From contig JAFXLS010000087.1 of the NCBI GenBank assembly GCA_017530965.1, positions 1 through 32,655 on the forward strand: a stretch of DNA of 32,655 nt, read 5' to 3'. This DNA is from Fibrobacter sp. (GTDB lineage Bacteria > Fibrobacterota > Fibrobacteria > Fibrobacterales > Fibrobacteraceae). Within the stretch, counting starts at the first letter, position 1; each line of letters begins with the position of its first letter. The notes under the pieces were generated by a model. The model did no database searches, was not told the origin of the DNA, and saw only the letters and a program-made list of their open reading frames with translations. This document shows positions 8,595 through 27,197 of the stretch, piece by piece. A program made the translations under genes and the position numbers.

Positions 8595-9332
8595 CTAACC
8601 TAAGCTAAAGCTATCGCCCAAGTAAATGCGGCGGGCTTCGGGGTCGTTCGCCAAATATTCCGAAGAACCTTCGGTAAGCACCTGGCTCTTGTACATAATG
8701 TAGGCGCGGTCCGTAATCGAAAGGGTTTCACGCACGTTATGGTCCGTAATCAGGATACCCATGCCGCGATCCTTGAGACCCGAAATAATGGACTGGATGT
8801 CCGCCACGGCAATGGGGTCGATGCCTGCGAAAGGTTCGTCCAGCAAAAGGAACGAAGGGTCACTGGCGAGGGCGCGTGCAATTTCCAAACGGCGGCGTTC
8901 ACCACCCGAGCAACTCATGGACTTGGTTTTGCGGATGTGGGTAATCTTGAATTCTTCCAGCAATTCTTCGAGGCGGCGCTTGCGTTCGGAACGCTTCATG
9001 CCCTGGGTTTCAAGAATTGCCATGATGTTGTCTTCGACACTGAGCTTGCGGAAAATAGAAGCTTCCTGGGGCAAGTAACCGATACCCAAGCGAGCGCGCT
9101 TGTACATGGGCTTGTCCGTCATCTCGATATCGTCGAGGAAAATGTGACCCGACTCCGGACGCACCATTCCCACGATCATGTAGAACGAGGTGGTCTTGCC
9201 AGCACCGTTGGGGCCCAGGAGTCCGACGATTTCGCCCTGGGACACGCGAATGGATACGTCGCTCACCACCTGGCGACCGCCATAGACCTTTCTCAGGTGT
9301 TCCGTGCGTATGGTACTAACAAGATTCTTCAT
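8595..9332 (-). CDS. lptB: LPS export ABC transporter ATPase LptB
   Basis: A 245-residue cytosolic ATPase that powers lipid extraction from the inner membrane by the Lpt machine. It has Walker [10 protein letters not shown] (40-48), Q-loop YLPQE, signature [10 protein letters not shown] (141-150), Walker [11 protein letters not shown] (161-170) and a switch histidine in ITDHNVRE. The [11 protein letters not shown] and FAGIDPIAV wording is diagnostic for LptB among ABC ATPases. It lies between lptA and rpoN with short gaps, the order seen in proteobacteria. The permease partners LptF and LptG are not in the window. Confidence 0.95.
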
Positions 9333-9365
9333 AAGGACTGCTCAGCTCTAATATTCATCAATAAT

Positions 9366-10649
9366 TTATAAATCTTTAGGCGAGGCGTTCTGCTTGCCGC
9401 GCATTTTTTTTATCATATTCAATTGGGCTTTCATCATTTCAGATTGAGGCTTATCACCTGTTTCCACCTTAAGTGAATCCGCCTGAGCCTTCTTGATGCG
9501 CTGTTCCTTTTCCATATCGATGTAACGGCCGCTAGCCATAGCCGCAGCCCCCAAAAGCTTCAGGGACTTCACCGCATTTTTCTGGGCATCGAACACGATA
9601 TGGATGGTATCTCCCGTAGCTTCGTTCTTGCCCGAAACAGAACGATCCTTCTTCACGTAGAAATAGGTGCTTTGGGCCTTGCCCGAAACAATGGCCCGGT
9701 CCATCTTGCCCTGATTAAAGTACAAGTCCAGCCTATCGCCGTCCATCAGGTTGCGGTATTCCTTCAGGTCCGTTTCGTAGAAGAATCCCCGCGCGTTCAG
9801 GTTCACGTAAAGACGTTCAATCTTGTCATTGCTGAATTGTGCGTAAAGGGTGTCGCCAAAAGCTTCGGTCACGCTGCCGGGAGCATTCTTCTTGGGTTCC
9901 TCTTGCTGGATACCATGGGCATTGCGAATCACCAAAGCCGACTTCAGGGACTTACCCGTAGAATCCAGCACCAGGAAAATGGAATCCCCCGTAAGGTGGT
10001 AATTCTTGAGATCGCATGTGGGATGACCCTTCATAGAAAGCCAATTGTTCTTGCGGTCAAAGTACCCCGTATCGCAAGTCACCACCATTTCGTTCTGCGT
10101 CACCTTCACCTGGTCGAAAGCCTGGGCGAAGGCATCTTTCTTATTGTAAATAATGCGCTTGGCGGAAATCGTCACCGTATCGATTTTCCCCTTTTTCTGC
10201 TTTTCGAACTGATAAAGCATGGGCTTCTGGGGCATGGTGAGAATTTCTTTCTCTCGGTCGTATTCCAGGTATTCGCCCGTAAACAAGTAGCTGTTCGCAG
10301 AATCGCCTGCGTGGACATTGCCCGAAGCTGTCGCAATGGCGCTCTTTTTCTGGTACAGGCCGTTTTCGGCCTGGATATAGCCCGAAGGGTGCGTAAAGAG
10401 GAAGCCGCCATTGCACTGCACGGTTTCGGCGGTCTTGTGCCAAAAGGCGCGTTGCGTGCGGAACTGGATGCTGTCATGGACGAAATGCACTCGCCCTTGC
10501 AGCAAGAGCGTTCCGCGCTTGCGGGCGACAGCAAGGCTGTCGGCATGTTTCATGATCAAGGGCGAGGACTGGGCAGCAGCGCTAGTTGCAAGAAGGGCGA
10601 CCAGGAGCAGCGACAAGAGCCAAATTTTGCGGGAGAACGATTTCATCAT
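9366..10649 (-). CDS. lptA: LptA/OstA-type periplasmic lipid-bridge protein, enlarged
   Basis: A 427-residue exported protein with a signal peptide (about 1-26, ending AAA before Q27). The rest is beta-strand rich in the OstA style: repeated short strands such as GRVHFVHDSIQFRT, CNGGFLFTHPSGYIQAENG, ATASGNVHAGDS, RIIYNKKDAFAQAFDQVKV and AIVSGKAQSTYFYVKKD. LptA bridges the periplasm as a beta-jellyroll fibre. The E. coli protein is about 185 residues, so this one has about twice the folded length and could span the periplasm with fewer copies. The C-terminus is charged and helical. Its ATG overlaps the lptC stop as ATGA, so translation is coupled. Family placement rests on strand pattern and context rather than one motif. 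Confidence 0.8.
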   Translation of the reverse strand: MMKSFSRKIWLLSLLLVALLATSAAAQSSPLIMKHADSLAVARKRGTLLLQGRVHFVHDSIQFRTQRAFWHKTAETVQCNGGFLFTHPSGYIQAENGLYQKKSAIATASGNVHAGDSANSYLFTGEYLEYDREKEILTMPQKPMLYQFEKQKKGKIDTVTISAKRIIYNKKDAFAQAFDQVKVTQNEMVVTCDTGYFDRKNNWLSMKGHPTCDLKNYHLTGDSIFLVLDSTGKSLKSALVIRNAHGIQQEEPKKNAPGSVTEAFGDTLYAQFSNDKIERLYVNLNARGFFYETDLKEYRNLMDGDRLDLYFNQGKMDRAIVSGKAQSTYFYVKKDRSVSGKNEATGDTIHIVFDAQKNAVKSLKLLGAAAMASGRYIDMEKEQRIKKAQADSLKVETGDKPQSEMMKAQLNMIKKMRGKQNASPKDL

Positions 10650-11503: not shown

Positions 11504-13519
11504 ATGAAACTCCGTATTATTGAATTTTTGAAGAATGTAGCAACCGGGCTTATCCCTTTGCAGAACCTGGTCTTGATTTCCCTTGCGGCGTGGGTGACGC
11601 ATATTGTTCTAAGAGTGTTGCTCCTTTTCCGCAGCAACCCTTACGGATTTCCCTTTGTCAGCAAGCCGGACTGGTTTATTTTCCATGCGGTCTGCATCGA
11701 CTTCATGTGGATCGTGAACGCACTGGTGGTATTCCTTATCATCGGCGCCATCGGCATCAAGATTGCCGATGCGCTGAAAACCGACAAGGCAAAAAAAGCC
11801 ATCCAGAAAACCCTGACGATTTTATACGCCGTATTCCACGGAGTAATCCTTTTCTTTACCCTTCTCGACAATGAAACCCAGCGATTCCTGGGCGGGCACC
11901 TGACCTTCGGACTGGTGGATACCTACAAGGACACATCATCTATCATTGTATTCTACGACTACGTGGCAAACGACTTGTCTGTACCCTATTTGCAGTTTGT
12001 CGTCCTTGTCCTGATGCTTCCCTTGACTTATGTACTCTACAGATTACTCTGCAAATGGTACCGTCCCGCGAACCATTTTTATATGAGAAAATCTGTCATT
12101 GCGATGGTTATTTTCTACATCGCTTCTTATTCGTACGTTTACTTTATATGGACAGGCAGCTCCCGCATGACAAAGCTCTGTCCCGTTGTATCCTTAATCT
12201 ACAAGGACCTATTCGATACCGAAAAATCCGCAGGCATTTCAGATAAAGACCTTGACGCCTATAAGACATCCTATCAAAATTTGTGGCAAAAGATTGAAGG
12301 TGATTCTTTATGGGAGTTCTCTAGCGCCAAGGAAGGAAACGGGCTTCCACTTTACCGTGTACCTAAAGCCGAACTCTTGAACAGCGAAAAGCTCAAAGCC
12401 CAGCGCGAAATGAAGCCCAACTTCATCTTGGTGCTAATGGAATCACAACGCGGCCTTAACACGGGTTACATGAACCCGCAAATACAGCCCTCCCCGACCC
12501 CCTTTATGGATTCTCTCGCCGAACATTCCCATGTATGGATGCGCATGCACACCAGTGGCGTTCCCACGACCGGCGGCGTGCTTTCCACACACATCGGCAT
12601 TCCTGACCATACGGAACTTTCTCAAGCAACAGACCTGGCTCATATCACCCTGCCAAGTTTCGTCTCGACACTTACCGATTCAGGCTACACCACCCACTAC
12701 ATGTCAGCAGCCGATCCCGCTTGGGATAACTTAGGTGTATGGATGGCGAAATGGTACACGGCGCAGCACTACAACCGCAATCGTGAAGACGATTCCACCT
12801 TTATGGACCATGCGATTGAATATGTTCGCGACACGCTTTCAAAAGAAGGAAAGCCGTTCCTTGCGACACTGATGACGCGTTCCAACCACTATCCCTTTAA
12901 CTTTGCCGCAGGCATGACTGACGAAGAAAAGACGAGACCTTTGCAGGAACGCATCAACGTGACGATGGGTTATGCAGACAGACAGCTCGCCCGCTTTATC
13001 CGCGCCGTTCAAAACGAGGAATGGTACCAAAACACCTATGTCATCGTGATGGCCGACCATGGTTTCCCCTTGGGCGAAAACGGAGTTTCTACCATGAGCG
13101 GCGGCGGATACTCAAATGTCAGCTGGATTCCGTTCTTTATCCACGGAAAGGGCTTAGAAGCCACTCGTGACACGATGACCGCAGCCCAAATCGACATTGC
13201 GCCCACCGTGCTTGAACTGGCCGGATTCGCCGTACCGAACATCTTTATGGGACACAACCTGCTGCGTGGTGGCGATACAGGACTTTCGCTCGGCGCCTAC
13301 TCCGGCTATGCGGCCATCGGATTCGACGGCTATCGCTTTATTGCAAAGTACCCCGCACAAGACGAAACGCATCTCTTTGCAGAAAACGACCTCCGTCAAG
13401 AAAAAGAAATCACCGGTAGCAACAAAAACGAAGAGAGCCGCACCATAGAAACCTATTTAGGGGCGACTCTCGATACTTTGCTGAAGATTTCGAATTACAG
13501 CTTGGAAAAGGGTCTATAA
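11504..13519 (+). CDS. LTA synthase-family membrane phosphotransferase/sulfatase (A)
   Basis: A 671-residue inner-membrane enzyme. About five membrane helices fill residues 15-220, and the rest is an alkaline-phosphatase-superfamily domain in the periplasm. Family residues are visible: metal ligand E313 in VLMESQRG, the nucleophile threonine in SGVPTTGG (T355/T356), H462 in RSNHYPF, and the metal pair D518/H519 in VMADHGFP. Relatives move phosphoglycerol or phosphoethanolamine from a phospholipid to a glycan or lipid. The donor and acceptor here are unknown. I use the ATG at 11504 because it begins the hydrophobic N-terminus; an in-frame ATG at 11453 would overlap the lptC start. Its stop overlaps the convergent gene by 6 nt. 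Two distant paralogues lie at 20830-24716. Confidence 0.85.
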   Translation: MKLRIIEFLKNVATGLIPLQNLVLISLAAWVTHIVLRVLLLFRSNPYGFPFVSKPDWFIFHAVCIDFMWIVNALVVFLIIGAIGIKIADALKTDKAKKAIQKTLTILYAVFHGVILFFTLLDNETQRFLGGHLTFGLVDTYKDTSSIIVFYDYVANDLSVPYLQFVVLVLMLPLTYVLYRLLCKWYRPANHFYMRKSVIAMVIFYIASYSYVYFIWTGSSRMTKLCPVVSLIYKDLFDTEKSAGISDKDLDAYKTSYQNLWQKIEGDSLWEFSSAKEGNGLPLYRVPKAELLNSEKLKAQREMKPNFILVLMESQRGLNTGYMNPQIQPSPTPFMDSLAEHSHVWMRMHTSGVPTTGGVLSTHIGIPDHTELSQATDLAHITLPSFVSTLTDSGYTTHYMSAADPAWDNLGVWMAKWYTAQHYNRNREDDSTFMDHAIEYVRDTLSKEGKPFLATLMTRSNHYPFNFAAGMTDEEKTRPLQERINVTMGYADRQLARFIRAVQNEEWYQNTYVIVMADHGFPLGENGVSTMSGGGYSNVSWIPFFIHGKGLEATRDTMTAAQIDIAPTVLELAGFAVPNIFMGHNLLRGGDTGLSLGAYSGYAAIGFDGYRFIAKYPAQDETHLFAENDLRQEKEITGSNKNEESRTIETYLGATLDTLLKISNYSLEKGL

Positions 13520-14392
13520 AAACAAGCGTCTAAAGAAGTTGATGATGCCAGCGGGAACCCTATAGCGGTATCCCCGGCAATCCACAACCATCACGCCCTT
13601 ATACATGTTGAACGTATGGAAGGCAACCTTCATAGTCGGGTGCGGAGAAGATTTTCTCCACAGTTCCTTAAAGACGAGGCCTTCTGAAGATTCTTCAACT
13701 TGCTGGAAAGATATGGCATGGCCATATTCCACATTACATTCCTGGGCTGGGCGATAAATTTTTCCCTTATATTCAAACCAATCGCCCGCATTTCGGGCAA
13801 TGTTTTCAGGGAAATGGTATTCCTTCACCTTAGTGTACATTCCAGCTTCGTTCACTTCATATACACCTAGCGTGGATCCATTCGGCGTCGGCATCTCCGT
13901 GGAATAAATCTGTTTTTTGCCGAACAATTCCGTATAGACCGCATCCGTAAGGAGAGCGTCGCTAATCGGTTTTCCATTCACCAAAGCAGGCTTTTCCAAG
14001 TCCAATTCGTATAGCTTCAGGCCACCACCCTTGAAATTTTCAGGGTAAACCAGAATTTTATCGCCCCTACGAATAATTGCCGGGAAACTGAGGTGGGAAT
14101 CCAGCTCTAGGATGGTATCTACCTTGAGAAGGCTATTGCTCGCCTTATCAATGGTAAGCATAGCAAGGCGGCCTCTCTTGTGAGGATAGTAGTATTCTTC
14201 GACTAAGACATATATCTTGTCATCCGTAACATCGAGAATGAAAGGATCCGCAAACCACCGATCCTTACAATTGTGGTTCAACCACCTGATTTTCAGCGGT
14301 TCACCACCAATGACTTCATCCAAGGTGTTCTCGACAAAACCGATGTTCCAAACACCTTGCATGATGCTACGGTATAACTCAATGAATCTCAC
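13514..14392 (-). CDS. Beta-propeller-like protein (GH43-like / GINT N-terminal-like)
   Basis: A 292-residue soluble protein of uncertain role. The segments RWFADPFILDVTDDKIYVLVEE (from about residue 45), GRLAMLTID, HLSFPAIIRRGDKILVYPE, GGGLKLYELD, AVYTEL and AGDWFEYKGKIYRPAQ look like successive blades of the five-bladed propeller seen in GH43-like folds and in the N-terminal domain of glucosamine inositolphosphorylceramide transferase. ADPF is the most typical mark. No signal peptide or membrane helix is seen. It starts with GTG, and its AAGGAG ribosome site is formed by the last codons of the RND gene 4 nt upstream, so the two proteins are made together and are likely to work on the same glycolipid. 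The stop overlaps the convergent gene by 6 nt. The fold call is moderate and the function is unknown. Confidence 0.6.
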   Translation of the reverse strand: MRFIELYRSIMQGVWNIGFVENTLDEVIGGEPLKIRWLNHNCKDRWFADPFILDVTDDKIYVLVEEYYYPHKRGRLAMLTIDKASNSLLKVDTILELDSHLSFPAIIRRGDKILVYPENFKGGGLKLYELDLEKPALVNGKPISDALLTDAVYTELFGKKQIYSTEMPTPNGSTLGVYEVNEAGMYTKVKEYHFPENIARNAGDWFEYKGKIYRPAQECNVEYGHAISFQQVEESSEGLVFKELWRKSSPHPTMKVAFHTFNMYKGVMVVDCRGYRYRVPAGIINFFRRLFL

Positions 14393-17034: not shown

Positions 17035-18111
17035 ATGAGAATAATGATAGTCCTTAACCGAATCGCCCGTGGTGGCGGGGAAAATGTGGCAGTTCAACTC
17101 GCCAATCAATTTTCCCGAATGGGGCACACAATTTTTTTCGTAAGCAATAAAGAACGAAACAACATTTCTGACTTTTACCCTATCGACGAAAATGTTCAAA
17201 TTCTCCCCTGTTTTCGTCATTTTTTCCCCTTCAAGATTTTCAGTCTTCGCCGCGCCATAAAAAAAGAGAATCCCGACATCATTATCGGCGTCATGCCGGA
17301 TTCCACTTTCTACACATACCTGGCGGCTTTCGGGCTCCACAAGAAAATCATTTCGTCTGACCACAGCTCTTTCGAAAAGAATCCTTATTCTCAAAGACAT
17401 CTTTTCCCTTACCTACTCAAGTTCTATTTCAACGCCGTCTACGACTGCGTTACCGTTTTGACAAAGACTGACCACGATATCGTCGTAAAGAGATTCAAAA
17501 AAACGGTGGTCATGCCCAACCCGCTTTCCATAGCGCCTGCAACGGCAATCAATACGAACAAGAAAAAACGAATTCTCGCCGCCGGCCGCCTTAATATTTG
17601 GCATTGCAAGGGTTTCGACATTCTCATTAAGGCATGGGCACGGATCCAGGAAAAATATCCTGATTGGACTGTTGAAATTGCTGGCGAAGGAGATAAGGGA
17701 CGTCAGTATCTGGAAAACCTTATTGCTGAAAACCACCTGGAAAACCGCGTCATTCTTTCCGGATTCCACCTGAACATCAAGGATTTCTTCGACGACTCCG
17801 AAATATTCGTCCTCAGCAGCCGCTACGAAGGATTCGGCATGGTGCTGATTGAAGCCATGTCACAGGGAGCCGCCTGCATCGCCTGCGATTACAAGGGCCG
17901 TCAAAGAGAAATCATCCAAAACGATTCCCAAGGCTTATGCGTAGAAAGCGAAAACGAAGAGGCCCTGGCCAAAGCGCTTTCAAGAATGATTGAAGACGAA
18001 GAATACCGCAAGCAAGTCCAAGAAAACGGCTGGAAGCGTTCCTTGGACTTTACTCCGGACAAAATCGGAAATAACTGGACCCGTCTCTTTGAAGAATTAC
18101 TAAGCCACTAA
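17035..18111 (+). CDS. GT4-family glycosyltransferase
   Basis: A 358-residue retaining glycosyltransferase of the GT-B fold, cytosolic or at the membrane face, that transfers a sugar from a nucleotide donor to a glycan or lipid acceptor. The N-terminal MRIMIVLNRIARGGGENV is the usual first Rossmann strand with a glycine-rich loop. The C-terminal domain starts near RILAAGRL, and the donor-binding EX7E motif is E265 to E273 in YEGFGMVLIEAMSQG. I choose the ATG at 17035 over the one at 17029 because it begins the first strand directly and has the recurrent TAnnTT spacing. The gene looks richer in A and T in its first third than its neighbours, which may hint at transfer. Its stop overlaps that of the convergent cytidylyltransferase gene by 4 nt. 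Confidence 0.9.
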   Translation: MRIMIVLNRIARGGGENVAVQLANQFSRMGHTIFFVSNKERNNISDFYPIDENVQILPCFRHFFPFKIFSLRRAIKKENPDIIIGVMPDSTFYTYLAAFGLHKKIISSDHSSFEKNPYSQRHLFPYLLKFYFNAVYDCVTVLTKTDHDIVVKRFKKTVVMPNPLSIAPATAINTNKKKRILAAGRLNIWHCKGFDILIKAWARIQEKYPDWTVEIAGEGDKGRQYLENLIAENHLENRVILSGFHLNIKDFFDDSEIFVLSSRYEGFGMVLIEAMSQGAACIACDYKGRQREIIQNDSQGLCVESENEEALAKALSRMIEDEEYRKQVQENGWKRSLDFTPDKIGNNWTRLFEELLSH

Positions 18112-18836
18112 TCCAAGGGGATTGTGGACTTCGCATTTTCGAAATCTTCGACCGTATCGAGCTCGCAAGAGAAATAGTCCGACGCATCCAGAACAGAATA
18201 GGTATGGCCCTGGGGAATCATGCGTTCAAAGGCCAGTTCGTAGAACGTATTTTCCAAGTGTTCCACGTTCATCATCTTTTCCAGTTCGGCATAAAGAGCG
18301 CTGGAGTAAGCCGCACCGATTTTTTCGATGCCGAGGCTTTCGCCCGCAGCGGCCTTCGGAGAGCAGGTCTTGCTGATCTCGGAAATGTTTCCGTCGGCAC
18401 CGAGCACAACCTTCATCTCTTCTTCGCCGAGTTCGTGGCGGATGAGCGTAAGCACGTTCGCCGCCTTGGATGCGAGCACGTTCTTCACGATTTGCGGGTC
18501 GTAAAGCAGGTCGCTATCCAGCAGCAGAAATTCCTTGCCTGCAACGGCCTTGCCGGCAAGCCACAGAGAATAAATGTTATTCGTGGAATCGTAAAGGGCA
18601 TTGTGAATGAAAGTGACGCGGATGGAATCGCCATAATGGCTTTTCACGAAGTCTTCAATCATGTGGTTCAGGTAACCCGTCACGATTACGAATTCCTGGA
18701 TACCGGCGCCCTTCAGGGCATCCATGGAGCGTTCCAAGAGCGAACGGCCCTTCACGTCCAAGAGGCACTTGGGCGTGTTATCGGTGAGCGGGCGCAGGCG
18801 CTTCGCCATTCCTGCAGCAAGAATTACGGCAATCAT
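18108..18836 (-). CDS. LicC/PntC-like sugar-phosphate-type nucleotidyltransferase (probable CTP:phospho-amino-alcohol cytidylyltransferase)
   Basis: A 242-residue single-domain nucleotidyltransferase. The NTP-binding loop is LAAGMAKRLRPLT (6-18) with K23 in TPKCLLD. The metal-binding acidic residues are in LLLDSDLLYD (D107/D109). DSTNNIYSLWLA (83-94) is the segment typical of phosphocholine and phosphonoalkyl cytidylyltransferases and not of sugar-1-phosphate enzymes, and the C-terminus has CELDTVEDFENA. I infer that it makes a CDP-activated small phospho-compound (choline, ethanolamine, aminopropanol or aminoethylphosphonate) for LicD. The ATG at 18836 overlaps the aminotransferase-like gene's stop as ATGA, so the two are translationally coupled. 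No choline kinase (LicA) is present, which argues against imported choline as the source. Confidence 0.82.
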   Translation of the reverse strand: MIAVILAAGMAKRLRPLTDNTPKCLLDVKGRSLLERSMDALKGAGIQEFVIVTGYLNHMIEDFVKSHYGDSIRVTFIHNALYDSTNNIYSLWLAGKAVAGKEFLLLDSDLLYDPQIVKNVLASKAANVLTLIRHELGEEEMKVVLGADGNISEISKTCSPKAAAGESLGIEKIGAAYSSALYAELEKMMNVEHLENTFYELAFERMIPQGHTYSVLDASDYFSCELDTVEDFENAKSTIPLD

Positions 18837-19867
18837 ACGGCAGCACAACGCTTGATGGTGTCAACCACCACCTGAATCTGTTCCTTGCGGCCAAGGGTAA
18901 TGCGCAGGCAATCTTCCAGGCCCTTGTCGCTCATGAACTTGATCTTGTAATCCTGTTCGGCCATCGCCTTCTGCAAGGCTTCCTTGATGCGGGTCGGGTA
19001 CTTGATAAGGATGAAGTTCGCAACGCTCTTGTACACCTTGAATCCCGGCAGGTTGCCAAGTTCCTTCTTGAACAGCTGGCGGTCCCATTCCATTTCGTCG
19101 GCGACCTTGCGGTAGTGATCTTCGCTTTCGATGGCGGCCATGGCCACCGCTTCGCTAAAGCGGTTGTAGCCCAGGTACTTGTTGGCGTAGCTCAGGAAAG
19201 ATTCATGGCCCTTGCCCATGAAGCCGAAGCCCATGCGGAGTCCCGGGAGGCCGAAGAACTTGGAAAGCGTGCGGGAAATAATCAAGTTCGAATACTTGCT
19301 CACGAGGGGTGCGATGTAGGCCGTATCCGTCGTAATGAAGGAGGCGTAGGCTTCGTCAATCAGCACCATGGTATCGCTCGGGATATTTTCCATGATGCGG
19401 CCAATTTCTTCCGGCGTAAGGCAGTTACCCGTCGGGTTGTTCGGAGAGGCCAAAAGCAACATGCGCGGATGAATCTTGTTGGTGAGGGCGATGACTTCAT
19501 CCACATCATAGGCGAAGGTATCGTCCTTTTCGTGGAGCGGATACATCTCGAAGGAACCGCCACATTCACCGGCAATGCGATTGTAATACCACCAGGAGAA
19601 TTCCGGAATCATGATGGTCTTATTTTCGCCCACCATCAGGTAGTAATGGACAGCATTCTTAAGGATATCTTCGCCACCGTAACCCAGCAACACCTGTTCT
19701 TCGGGAACGTTGTAGATTTCGCTGAGCTTCACCGAGAAAATACTCTTTTTGCCTTCATCGTAAATACGGGTATAGAAGCAGAGCTGTTCCGGGTCGAAAT
19801 TCTTGACGGCATCAAGCACTTTTTGAGACGGCTTGAAGTTGAATTCGTTTCTGTCCAAGTAGTTCAT
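18833..19867 (-). CDS. HisC/CobD-like PLP enzyme (aminotransferase or O-phospho-amino-acid decarboxylase)
   Basis: A 344-residue fold-type-I PLP enzyme. Visible residues are the GYGGEDIL loop (62-69), SPNNPTGN (141-148), D171 and Y174 in DEAYASF, PLP lysine K203 in SRTLSKFFGLPGLRMGF, and R211. These fit the histidinol-phosphate aminotransferase family, which also contains CobD, the L-threonine-phosphate decarboxylase, and relatives that act on phosphoserine. No histidine genes are nearby; instead it is coupled by ATGA to the cytidylyltransferase and follows licD. I therefore infer a role in making the phospho-amino-alcohol (or phosphonate) head group. Sequence alone does not separate transaminase from decarboxylase. 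A possible RBS is GG just before AAAAC-ATG. The 62-nt gap before it holds a TATATT box and a GGGG/CCCC hairpin. Confidence 0.82.
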   Translation of the reverse strand: MNYLDRNEFNFKPSQKVLDAVKNFDPEQLCFYTRIYDEGKKSIFSVKLSEIYNVPEEQVLLGYGGEDILKNAVHYYLMVGENKTIMIPEFSWWYYNRIAGECGGSFEMYPLHEKDDTFAYDVDEVIALTNKIHPRMLLLASPNNPTGNCLTPEEIGRIMENIPSDTMVLIDEAYASFITTDTAYIAPLVSKYSNLIISRTLSKFFGLPGLRMGFGFMGKGHESFLSYANKYLGYNRFSEAVAMAAIESEDHYRKVADEMEWDRQLFKKELGNLPGFKVYKSVANFILIKYPTRIKEALQKAMAEQDYKIKFMSDKGLEDCLRITLGRKEQIQVVVDTIKRCAAV

Positions 19868-19929: not shown

Positions 19930-20739
19930 TTATTTCCACCACACATCGAGCCCATGATTATAGCGCTTTTCGACCGGAGGAAGCTGCATATAGTCGTGGT
20001 AGAATTCCGACAGGTAGTAATCGAAGTTCTTGTAGCCGCTAAATTCGCGGTTTTCGAAGGGATAGCCAACCGTTTCCGCAATTTTTTCAAGATCGAGAAT
20101 GCGGTCGGTTTTGGTATCGAAGAAAAGCGTTGCCACATGGCCCGAATGGTTTGTGGGATAACGGCGAATGACCCGTTCCACATAACGGCAGAAACGCTTC
20201 TTGCCCACGATGCATGCCACGGCGTAGAAGAAGCGCTTGTACAAAAGCGTCCACGCATCATAAGCCTTAGACTTGAAATCGGTGGTAATGGCGAGGGTAA
20301 TCACGCGCAAGAAACTGCAGTAAAGTACGAAAGCCTTTTCCCAAAAACGGGATTTCGGAAGACCATCCAGCGGGAAGATATCAACCCAAATTCCCATTTC
20401 GCCCTTGTGGCGTTCCATTTTCACAGCCGTGCGGTTGTCATAGGCCTTTGCAAACGGGTAGAAATAGCCATCGCAAGTATCGTCAACCAGCGTGAGCCAT
20501 TCCTTATGACCGGGAGCATTCTTGTCCTTGAGAACGGCAATCAGTTTCTCGTAATCTTCTCGCAAAAGGCAAATATCAATGTCATCGTCCCAAGGAATAT
20601 AGCCCTTGTGGCGCACCGCACCGAGCAAGGTACCGTAAGCAAGGCTATACTTCAAATTGTTTTCTTTGCAAATGCGCTGGATTTCATCCAAGATACACAT
20701 CTGGATTTCACGAAATTCATTCTGTTCAATCTTTTTCAT
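19930..20739 (-). CDS. licD: LicD-family phosphotransferase
   Basis: A 269-residue protein of the LicD family, which transfers a phosphate-linked group (phosphocholine and others) from a CDP donor onto a sugar of a surface glycan. The family core YGTLLGAVRHKGYIPWDDDI covers residues 35-54, with the metal-binding DDDID at 51-55. A short helical N-terminus precedes it, and the protein has no signal peptide, so it acts at the cytosolic side before export of the glycan. It is the first gene of the licD / HisC-like / cytidylyltransferase unit. There is no Shine-Dalgarno sequence; a TATATT box ends 7 nt before the ATG. The name licD gives the family; the transferred group is not proven to be phosphocholine. 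Confidence 0.93.
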   Translation of the reverse strand: MKKIEQNEFREIQMCILDEIQRICKENNLKYSLAYGTLLGAVRHKGYIPWDDDIDICLLREDYEKLIAVLKDKNAPGHKEWLTLVDDTCDGYFYPFAKAYDNRTAVKMERHKGEMGIWVDIFPLDGLPKSRFWEKAFVLYCSFLRVITLAITTDFKSKAYDAWTLLYKRFFYAVACIVGKKRFCRYVERVIRRYPTNHSGHVATLFFDTKTDRILDLEKIAETVGYPFENREFSGYKNFDYYLSEFYHDYMQLPPVEKRYNHGLDVWWK

Positions 20740-22794: not shown

Positions 22795-24716
22795 AATGAT
22801 TGCGGAGGCATTACTTTATTTAAATACACGACATATTCCCACGCCTTGGCGGCGGCACGCATCTTACGCGCGATTTCGACCAAAGAGTCCTCAGGAACTT
22901 CTACAGGAATACCGGTGACAAAACCATCTGCCGGATCATCCGTATTCCAGTCGGGTTCCATAATCACCTTCTGGGCAATGGCAGGATCATCGCCGTCTAC
23001 AGGAACCACGTAATACGACATGGAATCTTTTCGCATTGCCATCGTTCCGTATCTAAACGAATAGCAGGCAGGAATTTCCTTGAATGCCAAGGAATCATCG
23101 AGCAAGTTGATTCCCATAAAATGGTTCGAGACGTCTAGACCCAAGAACGACATCACCGTTTTCGAAATGCTTCCCTGCGACACGATACTCTTATTGACGG
23201 AAGGTTCAATTCCCGGACCGCTAATCATTATCGATATCCAGGAGAAGCCTTCGTTACCCATTCCAATTCTTTCTGAAACTTGCTGTTGCTTTCCATTTGG
23301 CGTAGAATGGTCACCGGTCAAGATGACCAGCGTATTTTGGAAACGCGGGTCTTGCGAAAGGGAATCCAGAATAATCCCGACAGCACTATCCATATAGGCG
23401 GCAGCACGCAAATAGGCCTCGCCTGGATCCTCCGGCGTCTCACCCATCTCCGCCGGCAACACAAACGGCGTATGCATGCTGAGGCTCATCCAATGGAAAA
23501 AGGTCGGCTTGTCCTTGGGACGTTCCTTATAGCGTTCCACAAATCTTAAAGCAGAAGAGACATCGTCTTCATATTCCGGCTTGAATTCGTGATAGTCAAA
23601 CCACTTGCTATACCAGGCTTCTTCATTGTCAAAACGAGGGTCAGCCCCGAGAATGACTTCGTTATAGTACCCGGCATCCGAAAGGACTTCTGAAAAAGCG
23701 CGCAAGTTGGTATTCGGAAAATCGCGAAGCAATGTCTTATTGGGAAGGCTCATGACACCCGTCATAATTCCAAGCAAGCCTTCTACCGACGGATTTCCAA
23801 CGCTATAGGCATTGGGGAAATACAGCCCCCGCTTTGACAACCTGCACAAGTTCGGGAACTTTTCGCAAATGGATTCCACACGCATATCGAGAGACCAGCC
23901 CCTTAGCGACTCGATTGTCATCAAAAGGATATCCGGTTTTTCTTCTAGCGTTTTCGCCTTGAATGCGGCGAGAGAAGATTCTTCATTCGGAGATTCCTTC
24001 CAGAACGGATATTCACTATCGGGGTTTCCACCCAAGATTTCAATTCCTTCTCTAAAATCCGCGGGTTCCGTCTGGAACATAAAGGATTCAGCCAAGTCGC
24101 CCACCAGAGAGTAAACGACAGGACGGATTCTATCCCAACGGTGCCGCGAATAGTTGTACCACAAATGCGATGTACATCCCAATGCCGCAAAAACAAGAAC
24201 AAGTCCCAGTGAAATCCATGTCTTCCTCTGAATCGGACGGCGCAGCACCGCTTCGAGATTCATCTTGTAAGAATAGACAGACAATCCTGTAACAGACAAA
24301 ACGACCAAGCCAACCGTCAGCAAGAAATGCGAAAGGCCGCCCAACGCAATTTTGGATACAAGCCCCGTATCGGTCCATGCATAGGTATAGGTCTTGATAA
24401 AGGAGAGCGAAAGCTTCTGGCTCATCCAGCGCTGTAATTCATCATCGACACCACACAATAGGAAATAAATTGCGGCAAAAACAACCGACGCAATTTTCAG
24501 CACCTTAAATCCTTTCCCGCGAACCAGGAAGGACAAGCCGAAAAAGAGCGAGGCTGTCGCCATGCCAAAACCAATTTCACAATACAGGGTATGCCATAAG
24601 AACCGATTATAGTCGGGCACCAGCGATGTTCCCGTAGGCGTATCGAGCATGTACAAGGAACAAAGCAGAGCAAAACGCCCCGCAATCATAATCAAGCCAA
24701 AAAAGAACCAATACAT
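22791..24716 (-). CDS. LTA synthase-family membrane phosphotransferase/sulfatase (C), serine at the nucleophile site
   Basis: A 641-residue inner-membrane protein, built like enzymes A and B: about five helices (5-185) and a periplasmic alkaline-phosphatase-superfamily domain. The metal ligand Glu is in MTIESLRG (about 266), and LTGDHSTP (about 466) holds the other metal residues. The segment aligned with the threonine nucleophile reads SVGNPSVEGL (about 307), so serine replaces threonine here. Serine serves as nucleophile in alkaline phosphatase itself, so the enzyme may still be active but with other chemistry or substrates. A formylglycine sulfatase motif (C/S-x-P-x-R) is not present. Its start overlaps the flippase stop as TAATG and its end overlaps enzyme B as ATGA, so the three are coupled. 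Confidence 0.83.
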   Translation of the reverse strand: MYWFFFGLIMIAGRFALLCSLYMLDTPTGTSLVPDYNRFLWHTLYCEIGFGMATASLFFGLSFLVRGKGFKVLKIASVVFAAIYFLLCGVDDELQRWMSQKLSLSFIKTYTYAWTDTGLVSKIALGGLSHFLLTVGLVVLSVTGLSVYSYKMNLEAVLRRPIQRKTWISLGLVLVFAALGCTSHLWYNYSRHRWDRIRPVVYSLVGDLAESFMFQTEPADFREGIEILGGNPDSEYPFWKESPNEESSLAAFKAKTLEEKPDILLMTIESLRGWSLDMRVESICEKFPNLCRLSKRGLYFPNAYSVGNPSVEGLLGIMTGVMSLPNKTLLRDFPNTNLRAFSEVLSDAGYYNEVILGADPRFDNEEAWYSKWFDYHEFKPEYEDDVSSALRFVERYKERPKDKPTFFHWMSLSMHTPFVLPAEMGETPEDPGEAYLRAAAYMDSAVGIILDSLSQDPRFQNTLVILTGDHSTPNGKQQQVSERIGMGNEGFSWISIMISGPGIEPSVNKSIVSQGSISKTVMSFLGLDVSNHFMGINLLDDSLAFKEIPACYSFRYGTMAMRKDSMSYYVVPVDGDDPAIAQKVIMEPDWNTDDPADGFVTGIPVEVPEDSLVEIARKMRAAAKAWEYVVYLNKVMPPQSL

Positions 24717-26158
24717 TAGTCCCTCGCCGAAACAGCGTTACGGTCTTTATCCATTCTCTTTTTCACAACAAGTCCGTATGCCCCAAGGAGAGCAATGATT
24801 GCCACATACACAACGGCCTTTTCAATCATGGATAAAACAAATACCTGCATATTGAGAGCGATATAGAATGCAATCAAAAGAAGAATCCACACCACCTGTG
24901 ACCAAAGGCGAATCGAATAGGGTTGCAGCCTCATCTTGAACAAATAGGCATTGTTGCAAATGATGGCGAACACATTGTAGCAAAGCATCGAAAGTGCCGC
25001 ACCCACCAGTCCAAATGCAGGAATCAGCAGGTATCCCGATATGAGCGCCACACCCAATGAAACAATGTCCATGATAAGCGAGAAGAGGCTCTTGCCCATG
25101 CCATTCAGCACCACATAAGACATTCCGCCAAAGCCTGCCACCAAATGCACAAGCAACAAGATGCCAAGAGTTTCTGGCTGTACGATAAAGTCCTTGCCCG
25201 CAATGCCCAAAATCAAGTCCGGGAACAGCACGATAAAGAAACCGATCATCAGCTGAATGAAAGTGACCATAAAGACGCAGTAACTGTAAACCGGCTTGAG
25301 ATCCGTCTTGAGGCGACCCTTGTCCATGCCAGCCACCACCGGAGTAAGGATAGGAGTGAAGCCCACGCGGATCGTTTGCAGCGCATTGGAAATCGTGACC
25401 ATGATGCCGTAGGCGCCCGCCTTTTCGGGGCCAAGGAAAAGCATGACCATCCAAAGGCTCGAACGGATCAAGAAAGACGACACAAATTCATCGACACCCA
25501 GCGGCAGCGAATATTTCAAAAGTACTCGCGAAACATTAAAGCGCGGATGTAGCGGCATTTCGGGGAACTGCTTACGGATAAGCACAAAGAGCACGCATGC
25601 CCCCACCATCTGGCCCACCAAAAGGCCCAGCGGAAGCGCATGGGGAACCCCCGTATAGTGAAGAACAATCGATGTTGCCGGAGCAAGAGACACCGTAAGG
25701 AACGAATTCACGAACACCGCATTCTGCGGATGACGGTTTCCTTCGGATGCGGTACCAAAAACATAGCAGCCTATGTAGAACAACAGCGATAGCGCATACC
25801 AAGGCAATTCCTTGGAAATATAAGGCGTAAAGGAACCGACAAATATCACGGCCGTACAGAGGAGGGCAATCGCAGCCGAAATCCAGAAGGATTCCATAAT
25901 GCCATCGTAACGGAGGCGGTTGTTCAAGCCGTTCTGCGGAAGATACCAGTACAGGCCTTTATCCAGCCCAAGGGTTGACGAATGGGCAATGGTCAAAAGG
26001 AGCGTCTGTGCAGAAATGAAGATTCCAAATTCCGCGGCGCCAAAAATACGCGCCATTACAAAAGTCAACAGCGGACCGCAAACCTTGAGGATCGTCCCCA
26101 CGATATTGACGATCATCGCCTTTTTCAAGAACTTACTGTCTGATTCCAGATTTCCCAT
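24716..26158 (-). CDS. MATE-superfamily polysaccharide/lipid-linked glycan flippase (Wzx-like)
   Basis: A 480-residue inner-membrane protein of about 12-14 helices with little outside the membrane. The opening (FLKKAMIVNIVGTILKVCGP, then MARIFGAAEFGIFISAQTL) is typical of polysaccharide biosynthesis flippases, with further helices to the end at about residue 470 and a short charged tail. Such proteins turn undecaprenyl-linked sugar units from the cytosolic to the periplasmic side. I choose the ATG at 26158, giving a usual start before the first helix; an open frame reaches 14 codons further into the 3' end of the upstream gene. No Wzy polymerase or chain-length protein is recognisable nearby, so the flipped unit may be a short glycolipid. 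Confidence 0.88.
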   Translation of the reverse strand: MGNLESDSKFLKKAMIVNIVGTILKVCGPLLTFVMARIFGAAEFGIFISAQTLLLTIAHSSTLGLDKGLYWYLPQNGLNNRLRYDGIMESFWISAAIALLCTAVIFVGSFTPYISKELPWYALSLLFYIGCYVFGTASEGNRHPQNAVFVNSFLTVSLAPATSIVLHYTGVPHALPLGLLVGQMVGACVLFVLIRKQFPEMPLHPRFNVSRVLLKYSLPLGVDEFVSSFLIRSSLWMVMLFLGPEKAGAYGIMVTISNALQTIRVGFTPILTPVVAGMDKGRLKTDLKPVYSYCVFMVTFIQLMIGFFIVLFPDLILGIAGKDFIVQPETLGILLLVHLVAGFGGMSYVVLNGMGKSLFSLIMDIVSLGVALISGYLLIPAFGLVGAALSMLCYNVFAIICNNAYLFKMRLQPYSIRLWSQVVWILLLIAFYIALNMQVFVLSMIEKAVVYVAIIALLGAYGLVVKKRMDKDRNAVSARD

Positions 26159-26168
26159 AATCAATCGC

Positions 26169-26174
26169 AATATA
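26169..26174 (-). promoter_or_regulatory. TAnnTT box before the flippase, 10 nt from the ATG
   Basis: TATATT on the minus strand sits in the 22-nt gap between the upstream glycosyltransferase stop and the flippase ATG. It could be an internal promoter. Its spacing is longer than in the other cases. Confidence 0.35.
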
Positions 26175-26180
26175 GAAAAA

Positions 26181-27197
26181 TCACTTACCGATAAGCGCAC
26201 CGAAAAGATGCAACGGTTTTACGAGAATCGGCAAATGCTTGTACAGCCAGGAGAGCGACTTGGCGAAGGCGTAGCTGCGGATAATGTAGGCGCCACCAGC
26301 ACCCACCTTGCGGGTCTGGAATTCAAATTCTTCCTTGACGTGGGCAATCACATCGTCGTAGTATTCGTTGATAGTAATGCTCTTGTCAGCATTGACCTTC
26401 ACCGGAATATTCTTCAGGTTGGTGTAGAAGTCCTTGCGCAAAATTTTCGGCAAGAACAAGTCCATGCTGGCAGGCACCTTGTGGCCGCGGGTATCGATGA
26501 TTCGCGAACCGAAGAAGTGCAGCACCTTTGCGGTGGGCAAGAAACGGTTGCCGTAAGCCAGCTGGCAGTTCCAGCCTCCGGGCATTTTTTGCGTAATGTA
26601 GCCGAACTTGAAGTTCGTTTCGGCAAGGCTTGCCATGTCGTAGGGGAAATTCTTGGACACGCAATAGAGCCAAAGTTCGTGCCAAGTTTCAAAGAACTTG
26701 CGAGCTTCGGGAGTGTCTGCCGCAAACATCACGCCCCCGTTAAAGATTTCGTCATTCAGAATCGGCGAGAAGCCCATCATTTTCGCGTTATTCAAAACTT
26801 TCTTGCGATTGATGGCCTTTGAAAGATTCGTGTGGAAATCGAGCACCGCGTAAATTCCACCCTTCCATTCTTCGGGAATCGAAAGGTCACCCACGATGGC
26901 GATGTCGGAATCCATGTACAGAAAATCGCCGTCAATGACGTTGCGCATGACCGTCTTGAGGTAACGGGAGCGGAGCATGGGCGTAAACTTTTCGTCGAGG
27001 GTCAGTACCTTGAGTTCGTCGACCGCATCCTTGAGGACCGCACGGGGGCCGGTAAGGGTCGCCGCCGTCTTGTCGTCGGTCAGGAGCGTTACGAATGCGC
27101 CCGGGTTATGCACACGCAAAGAGGCAATCGCCACCAGCGTCTGTTCACAGAAAAAATCCTTCGGGGAACTAGTCAGAACAAAAAGGTACTTTGTCAT
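26181..27197 (-). CDS. GT-A fold glycosyltransferase with DxD motif (GT8/GT77-like)
   Basis: A 338-residue probable glycosyltransferase. The N-terminal TKYLFVLTSSP opens a Rossmann-type domain, ASLRVHNPGAFVTLLTDD follows as in GT8-like enzymes, and the metal- and nucleotide-binding DSD (96-98, in FLYMDSDIAIVGD) is clear. FNGGVMFA near residue 172 is a second typical segment, and HFFG (about 227) may supply another metal-site histidine. There is no signal peptide; a weakly hydrophobic C-terminus may sit on the membrane. It is the first gene of the operon that continues with the flippase and enzymes C and B, so it likely adds a sugar to the lipid-linked unit that is flipped. The exact GT family cannot be fixed by eye. 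Confidence 0.75.
   Translation of the reverse strand: MTKYLFVLTSSPKDFFCEQTLVAIASLRVHNPGAFVTLLTDDKTAATLTGPRAVLKDAVDELKVLTLDEKFTPMLRSRYLKTVMRNVIDGDFLYMDSDIAIVGDLSIPEEWKGGIYAVLDFHTNLSKAINRKKVLNNAKMMGFSPILNDEIFNGGVMFAADTPEARKFFETWHELWLYCVSKNFPYDMASLAETNFKFGYITQKMPGGWNCQLAYGNRFLPTAKVLHFFGSRIIDTRGHKVPASMDLFLPKILRKDFYTNLKNIPVKVNADKSITINEYYDDVIAHVKEEFEFQTRKVGAGGAYIIRSYAFAKSLSWLYKHLPILVKPLHLFGALIGK

Follow-up and report, generated by a model that had tools for sequence, protein, structure and literature searches.

A PLP enzyme of the HisC/CobD superfamily is coupled to a LicC-like cytidylyltransferase in Fibrobacter and in gut Bacteroidota, and this coupling is not due to chance. Judged by sequence, the enzyme is best called a member of a third clade, beside HisC and CobD. 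We tentatively propose that the pair may catalyse steps one and two of a Kennedy-like headgroup pathway that needs no kinase, in which the PLP enzyme would convert dihydroxyacetone phosphate (DHAP) to serinol phosphate. The product is probably a small phosphate-bearing amino group that is put on surface sugars or membrane lipids.

The pair lies in a window that is the entire 32.7-kb contig of a Fibrobacter genome (Table 1). The order on the minus strand is LicD, PLP enzyme, LicC-like cytidylyltransferase. The initial annotation had reported overlapping starts and stops, a LicD gene directly upstream and no histidine or cobalamin genes nearby, and in these points it was accurate. Both reading frames are real and share an ATGA, as they do in 13 of 13 Fibrobacter loci; 62 bp separate the end of the LicD gene from the PLP gene; and no histidine or cobalamin genes, nor a choline kinase, were recognised among the window proteins scanned. 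The cytidylyltransferase stops at 18108, and the ATG at 18836, within the ATGA, is a better start for it than the mechanically assigned TTG at 18848. The LicD protein, which also has a weak NCBIfam match to the Mf1 cholinephosphotransferase, is the probable user of the CDP-activated headgroup.

Table 1 Features of the window and fused proteins of other loci.
Feature	Location	Strand	Details
PLP enzyme, HisC/CobD superfamily	18833-19867	minus	344 aa; ATG start, AAAAAGG just upstream
LicC/PntC-like CTP:phospho-headgroup cytidylyltransferase	18108-18836	minus	242 aa; Pfam NTP_transferase/NTP_transf_3
ATGA overlap, PLP gene stop/cytidylyltransferase start	18833-18836	minus	read directly; translational coupling
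LicD-family phosphotransferase	19930-20739	minus	Pfam LicD 153 bits, E=2e-44, cut-off 22.6
Wzx/MATE-type polysaccharide flippase	24716-26200	minus	Pfam Polysacc_synt
Fused cytidylyltransferase + PLP protein	L039:5891-7705
Fused cytidylyltransferase + PLP protein	L040:4875-6695
Fused cytidylyltransferase + PLP protein	L041:5449-7275
Fused cytidylyltransferase + PLP protein	L042:5815-7635
Fused cytidylyltransferase + PLP protein	L043:5366-7180
Fused cytidylyltransferase + PLP protein	L044:5079-6893
Fused cytidylyltransferase + PLP protein	L199:5927-7822

The surroundings in the window are mostly cell-surface genes, with a Wzx-type flippase, a glycosyltransferase, an Lpt-like ABC/OstA pair and three sulfatase-fold proteins, two of which match LtaS weakly. 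The flippase is a conserved neighbour in most Fibrobacter loci, either upstream of LicD or elsewhere in the locus. The Lpt-like genes (8595-10649) encode an LptB-like ABC protein and an OstA/LptD-N protein and adjoin rpoN, although F. succinogenes has been described as lacking LPS. A match to the N-terminal domain of plant glucosamine inositolphosphorylceramide transferase (PF24793, E=1e-13) at 13514-14392 was unexpected in Fibrobacter.

The PLP enzyme belongs to class I/II (Pfam Aminotran_1_2, E=3e-40) and keeps the PLP-binding and catalytic residues expected of fold-type I (N144, D171, Y174, S202, K203 and R211). It is extremely improbable that it is an ordinary histidinol-phosphate aminotransferase that chances to adjoin a LicC gene. 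Its best NCBIfam match is indeed hisC, yet it scores 215 bits on the HisC model TIGR01141, under the cut-off of 276.55. The outcome that the initial annotation had seen as fatal to its proposal, a member of the true HisC clade in a genome with no other hisC, is not what we found: the source genome has a separate hisC on another contig (341 bits on TIGR01141), and a full-scoring hisC occurs besides the PLP gene in 17 of 18 carrier genomes examined. Score, second hisC and replaced pocket residues are the grounds on which we reject a true HisC.

The pocket residues are changed throughout the clade. Y20, Y110, Y243 and R322 of HisC (E. coli numbering) are presumably substrate-pocket residues. All 29 clade members have Trp for Tyr110, Leu for Tyr243 and Lys for Arg322 without variation (W92, L232 and K310 in the window enzyme), and all keep the PLP residues and Arg335. 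In almost all 29 the N-terminal arm with Tyr20 is missing or could not be aligned, and Tyr20 is absent in the window enzyme. We infer that the bulky Trp occupies some of the room meant for the imidazole and that positive charge for the phosphate is retained, so that the substrate would be a smaller phosphate ester.

The initial annotation had called for a tree with HisC, CobD and phosphoserine decarboxylases. Ours took in HisC, CobD, SMUL_1544, the fused proteins of other Fibrobacter and window-type relatives, and it resolved the window-type enzymes as a single clade of their own (support 100/100, stem 1.77). With outgroup rooting this clade falls with HisC. AU tests rejected neither joining it to the CobD clade (p=0.12) nor holding HisC as one clade without it (p=0.13). 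A structure model of the PLP enzyme (pLDDT 77) matches HisC structures with TM of 0.7-0.8, and its best fold match is plant HisC with histidinol phosphate (8bj3).

These results bear on the proposal of the initial annotation, that a CobD-type decarboxylase of O-phospho amino acids supplies a substrate for CTP activation and transfer without a kinase. The kinase-free logic stood, and is strengthened by the conserved linkage to CDP-alcohol phosphotransferases and LicD, but the CobD-type assignment found no support in the signatures. The enzyme scores 117 bits on the CobD model TIGR01140, far under the cut-off of 290.55. At HisC position 243, where all CobD, fused and SMUL_1544 (6oux) rows have Trp, the window clade has Leu; at position 339 the Arg of the SMUL_1544/fused type is replaced by Gly; and the HisC-type G326 is kept. 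It is doubtful that the enzyme decarboxylates O-phospho-L-serine to phosphoethanolamine, from which its partner would make the CDP-ethanolamine used by LicD or in phosphoethanolamine lipids. Several points nonetheless speak for this reaction. Placement with CobD was not rejected by the AU test, and the solved decarboxylase SMUL_1544 matches the window enzyme nearly as well as plant HisC does (99 versus 101 bits). Cj1436 of Campylobacter catalyses the same conversion of phosphoserine to ethanolamine phosphate in a capsule locus (PMC12409886). Phosphoethanolamine lipids, unlike serinol-phosphate lipids, are well known in Bacteroidota, phosphoethanolamine dihydroceramide being a known Bacteroides lipid (PMC9246714). 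The literature searched held no direct report of a phosphoserine decarboxylase feeding CDP-ethanolamine. As to a stand-in for a missing phosphatidylserine decarboxylase, this role is unsupported, since Psd was present in 17 of the 18 carriers and all 4 of the non-carriers searched.

The genus itself offers a better candidate for phosphoserine decarboxylation. In other Fibrobacter genomes a single protein of 604-608 aa starts with a cytidylyltransferase domain and ends with a CobD/SMUL_1544-like one; with one Bacteroidales genome included, the fused proteins span 604-631 aa. The PLP domain scores 152 bits to 6oux, and the proteins of loci L039-L044 group with SMUL_1544/CobD. The phosphoserine decarboxylase idea fits the fused protein better than the window enzyme, and we regard the fused protein as a strong candidate for converting phosphoserine to CDP-ethanolamine within one polypeptide. 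It also lends support to the wider idea of a PLP enzyme feeding a LicC-like partner, and its gene is near LicD in most of its Fibrobacter loci. In the loci inspected, an octopine/nopaline-dehydrogenase-like gene adjoins the fused enzyme (L043:7177-8193, L039:4893-5894), a neighbour that might modify the amine by N-carboxyalkylation.

We found the window-type PLP enzyme in 20 of 168 Fibrobacterota genomes, at identities of at least 89%. A scan of prokaryote genomes gave 359 relatives, the best 80 of which are from Fibrobacter and rumen/gut Prevotella/Bacteroidales (81-99%); such high identity across Fibrobacter and Bacteroidales is suggestive of exchange between phyla. Sampling 395 Bacteroidota genomes yielded a further 16 relatives at 37-43%. 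A plasmid collection held mostly ordinary hisC and one 60%-identical copy, from Prevotella oral taxon 299, with the same PLP-LicC-LicD order.

The linkage spans both phyla: 82 of 97 loci have a LicC-like gene no more than 3 kb from the PLP gene, and in 80 the two genes share a strand and lie within 1.2 kb of each other. The 97 loci are in part related, so they do not count as independent events. In Bacteroidota the ATGA overlap occurs in 6 of 67 loci, so it is the coupling, and not the exact overlap, that is general. Six Prevotella-type loci (L093, L098, L100-L102, L104) have the PLP gene followed by Rnf-type-looking genes, so called from gene sizes and sequences, and not by LicC; in these a CDP-alcohol transferase, usually with an LPG_synthase_TM gene, is divergent upstream.

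The third partner differs between the phyla. LicD is near the pair in 13 of 13 Fibrobacter loci, and in the near Bacteroidota loci its place is taken by a CDP-alcohol phosphotransferase (PF01066; within 3 kb in 51 of 67 by tblastn), which an LPG_synthase_TM protein often joins. By ORF clustering, the CDP-alcohol transferase family was also found in 14 of 17 distant loci (37-43% identity, except L226 at 60%), of which L227, L232, L233 and L236 have compact PLP/CDP-alcohol transferase/LicC operons with near-abutting or overlapping genes. The best solved matches of the cassette transferase are AF2299 and inositol phosphotransferases. Among 61 cassette transferases, 45 do not match the full DxxDGxxAR...GxxxDxxxD motif (for example L142:5849-6847 and similar Bacteroidales genes), and the deviating sequences displayed have Gly for the fourth Asp.

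The initial annotation had considered a phosphonate-aldehyde transaminase as its main alternative. Such an enzyme would convert phosphonoacetaldehyde to 2-aminoethylphosphonate and feed a PntC-like partner. The best solved relatives of the cytidylyltransferase are LicC (1jyk, E=1e-18) and, second, PntC (6pd1, E=7e-13), its alignment shows PntC-like GExxGI(E/T)K and SD(L/I) motifs, and a different contig of the source genome carries a PepM-Ppd cluster. We nevertheless consider this role very unlikely. In 32 Fibrobacterota genomes PepM was present in 5 of 20 pair carriers versus 3 of 12 others (odds ratio 1.0); it was missing from the other 15 carriers, including the 100%-complete carrier G005, and from most Bacteroidota carriers tested. 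This distribution contradicts a phosphonate transaminase as the general function, and phosphonate could be a side substrate in the source genome. The PepM-Ppd cluster of that genome (L200:6502-8942) has its own nucleotidyltransferase and three LicD-type genes, and no PLP transaminase was seen within the stretch listed.

For the proposed pathway we infer every catalytic step, substrate and acceptor, working from the observed clade, residues, linkage and distribution. The PLP enzyme would make a small aminoalcohol phosphate, and with modest confidence we assign this step to the transamination of DHAP to serinol phosphate. The LicC-like enzyme would then use CTP to turn the aminoalcohol phosphate into a CDP-aminoalcohol. 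In Fibrobacter the adjacent LicD would move the phospho-headgroup onto a surface glycan, and in Bacteroidota it would mostly be the adjacent CDP-alcohol phosphotransferase that moves it onto a lipid. We slightly favour DHAP transamination, itself a tentative choice, over the more doubtful phosphoserine decarboxylation, because the clade falls with HisC in the outgroup-rooted tree, HisC is the best fold match, G326 is kept and the CobD Trp is absent. By analogy, the step from DHAP to serinol phosphate would be the HisC reaction with a hydroxyl replacing the imidazole. Such a reaction was reported for Cj1437 of Campylobacter, which transaminates DHAP with glutamate to serinol phosphate (PMC12096443; PMC12409886). 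In the literature searched we found nothing direct on a serinol-phosphate lipid, CDP-serinol or phosphatidylserinol, and no published Fibrobacter glycan structures. Another transaminase or PLP reaction that yields some other phosphorylated headgroup, such as phosphoethanolamine (from glycolaldehyde phosphate), phosphoserine or an aminotetrol phosphate, is improbable. In its favour, the remodelled pocket matches no characterised enzyme compared; against it, the chemical analogy is less direct and the searches made gave no precedent.

In its broadest form, which we regard as rather unlikely, the proposal is of a widespread, hitherto unassigned cassette, shared by Fibrobacter and gut Bacteroidota, in which the third-clade enzyme makes an aminoalcohol phosphate. 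This product, which may be serinol phosphate, would be activated as a CDP ester and end up as an undescribed phospho-headgroup on lipids, by way of the CDP-alcohol phosphotransferase, or on glycans, by way of LicD. If so, many rumen and gut Bacteroidota would have a headgroup pathway with a key enzyme that readily passes for one of histidine biosynthesis, and a PLP enzyme would be able to replace an alcohol kinase or an inositol-phosphate synthase in Kennedy-type tailoring of lipids and glycans.

The Bacteroidota cassette resembles the alternative inositol-lipid cluster of Bacteroidetes (Prevotella/Bacteroides), which consists of an inositol-phosphate synthase, an NTP transferase, a CDP-alcohol transferase and a HAD hydrolase (Heaver et al. 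2022, PMC9246714). Both are Kennedy-like cassettes that share an NTP transferase, a CDP-alcohol phosphotransferase and a lysylphosphatidylglycerol-synthase-like membrane protein, but the PLP cassette has the HisC-like enzyme in the place of the inositol-phosphate synthase. No HAD hydrolase was identified among the conserved neighbours of the PLP enzyme. Of 22 carriers examined, 14 had no match to inositol-phosphate synthase (PF01658), both Fibrobacter (the source genome and G005) among them, and an inositol-lipid role is rejected for these 14. Where genomes have both the PLP cassette and this synthase, a paralogous CDP-alcohol transferase (37-47% identical) was near the synthase in three genomes (3 of 7 regions examined). 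Together, the paralogous transferase and the carriers without PF01658 place the PLP enzyme in the position of headgroup supplier. Surveys of inositol-lipid capacity that use CDP-alcohol transferase homology alone may be misled by this sister cassette.

The Fibrobacter arrangement shares a cytidylyltransferase and LicD with the LicC-LicD phosphocholine pathway, from which it differs in that the headgroup is proposed to come from a PLP enzyme and not by way of a choline kinase. In PntC of Treponema denticola (6pd1), too, a cytidylyltransferase gets its substrate from an attached PLP transaminase; however, that transaminase is of class V, fused and PepM-linked, whereas the window pair is of class I/II, separate and PepM-independent. 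SMUL_1544 and CobD belong to the same superfamily as the window enzyme and both act on O-phospho amino acids, but the window clade stands separate from them and is without their Trp signature. Precedents for the chemistry are Cj1437 and Cj1436 of Campylobacter jejuni, PLP enzymes of a surface-polysaccharide locus that make serinol phosphate and ethanolamine phosphate, respectively. There, however, Cj1438 links the amine straight to glucuronic acid as an amide and Cj1435 takes off the phosphate, with no CDP activation.
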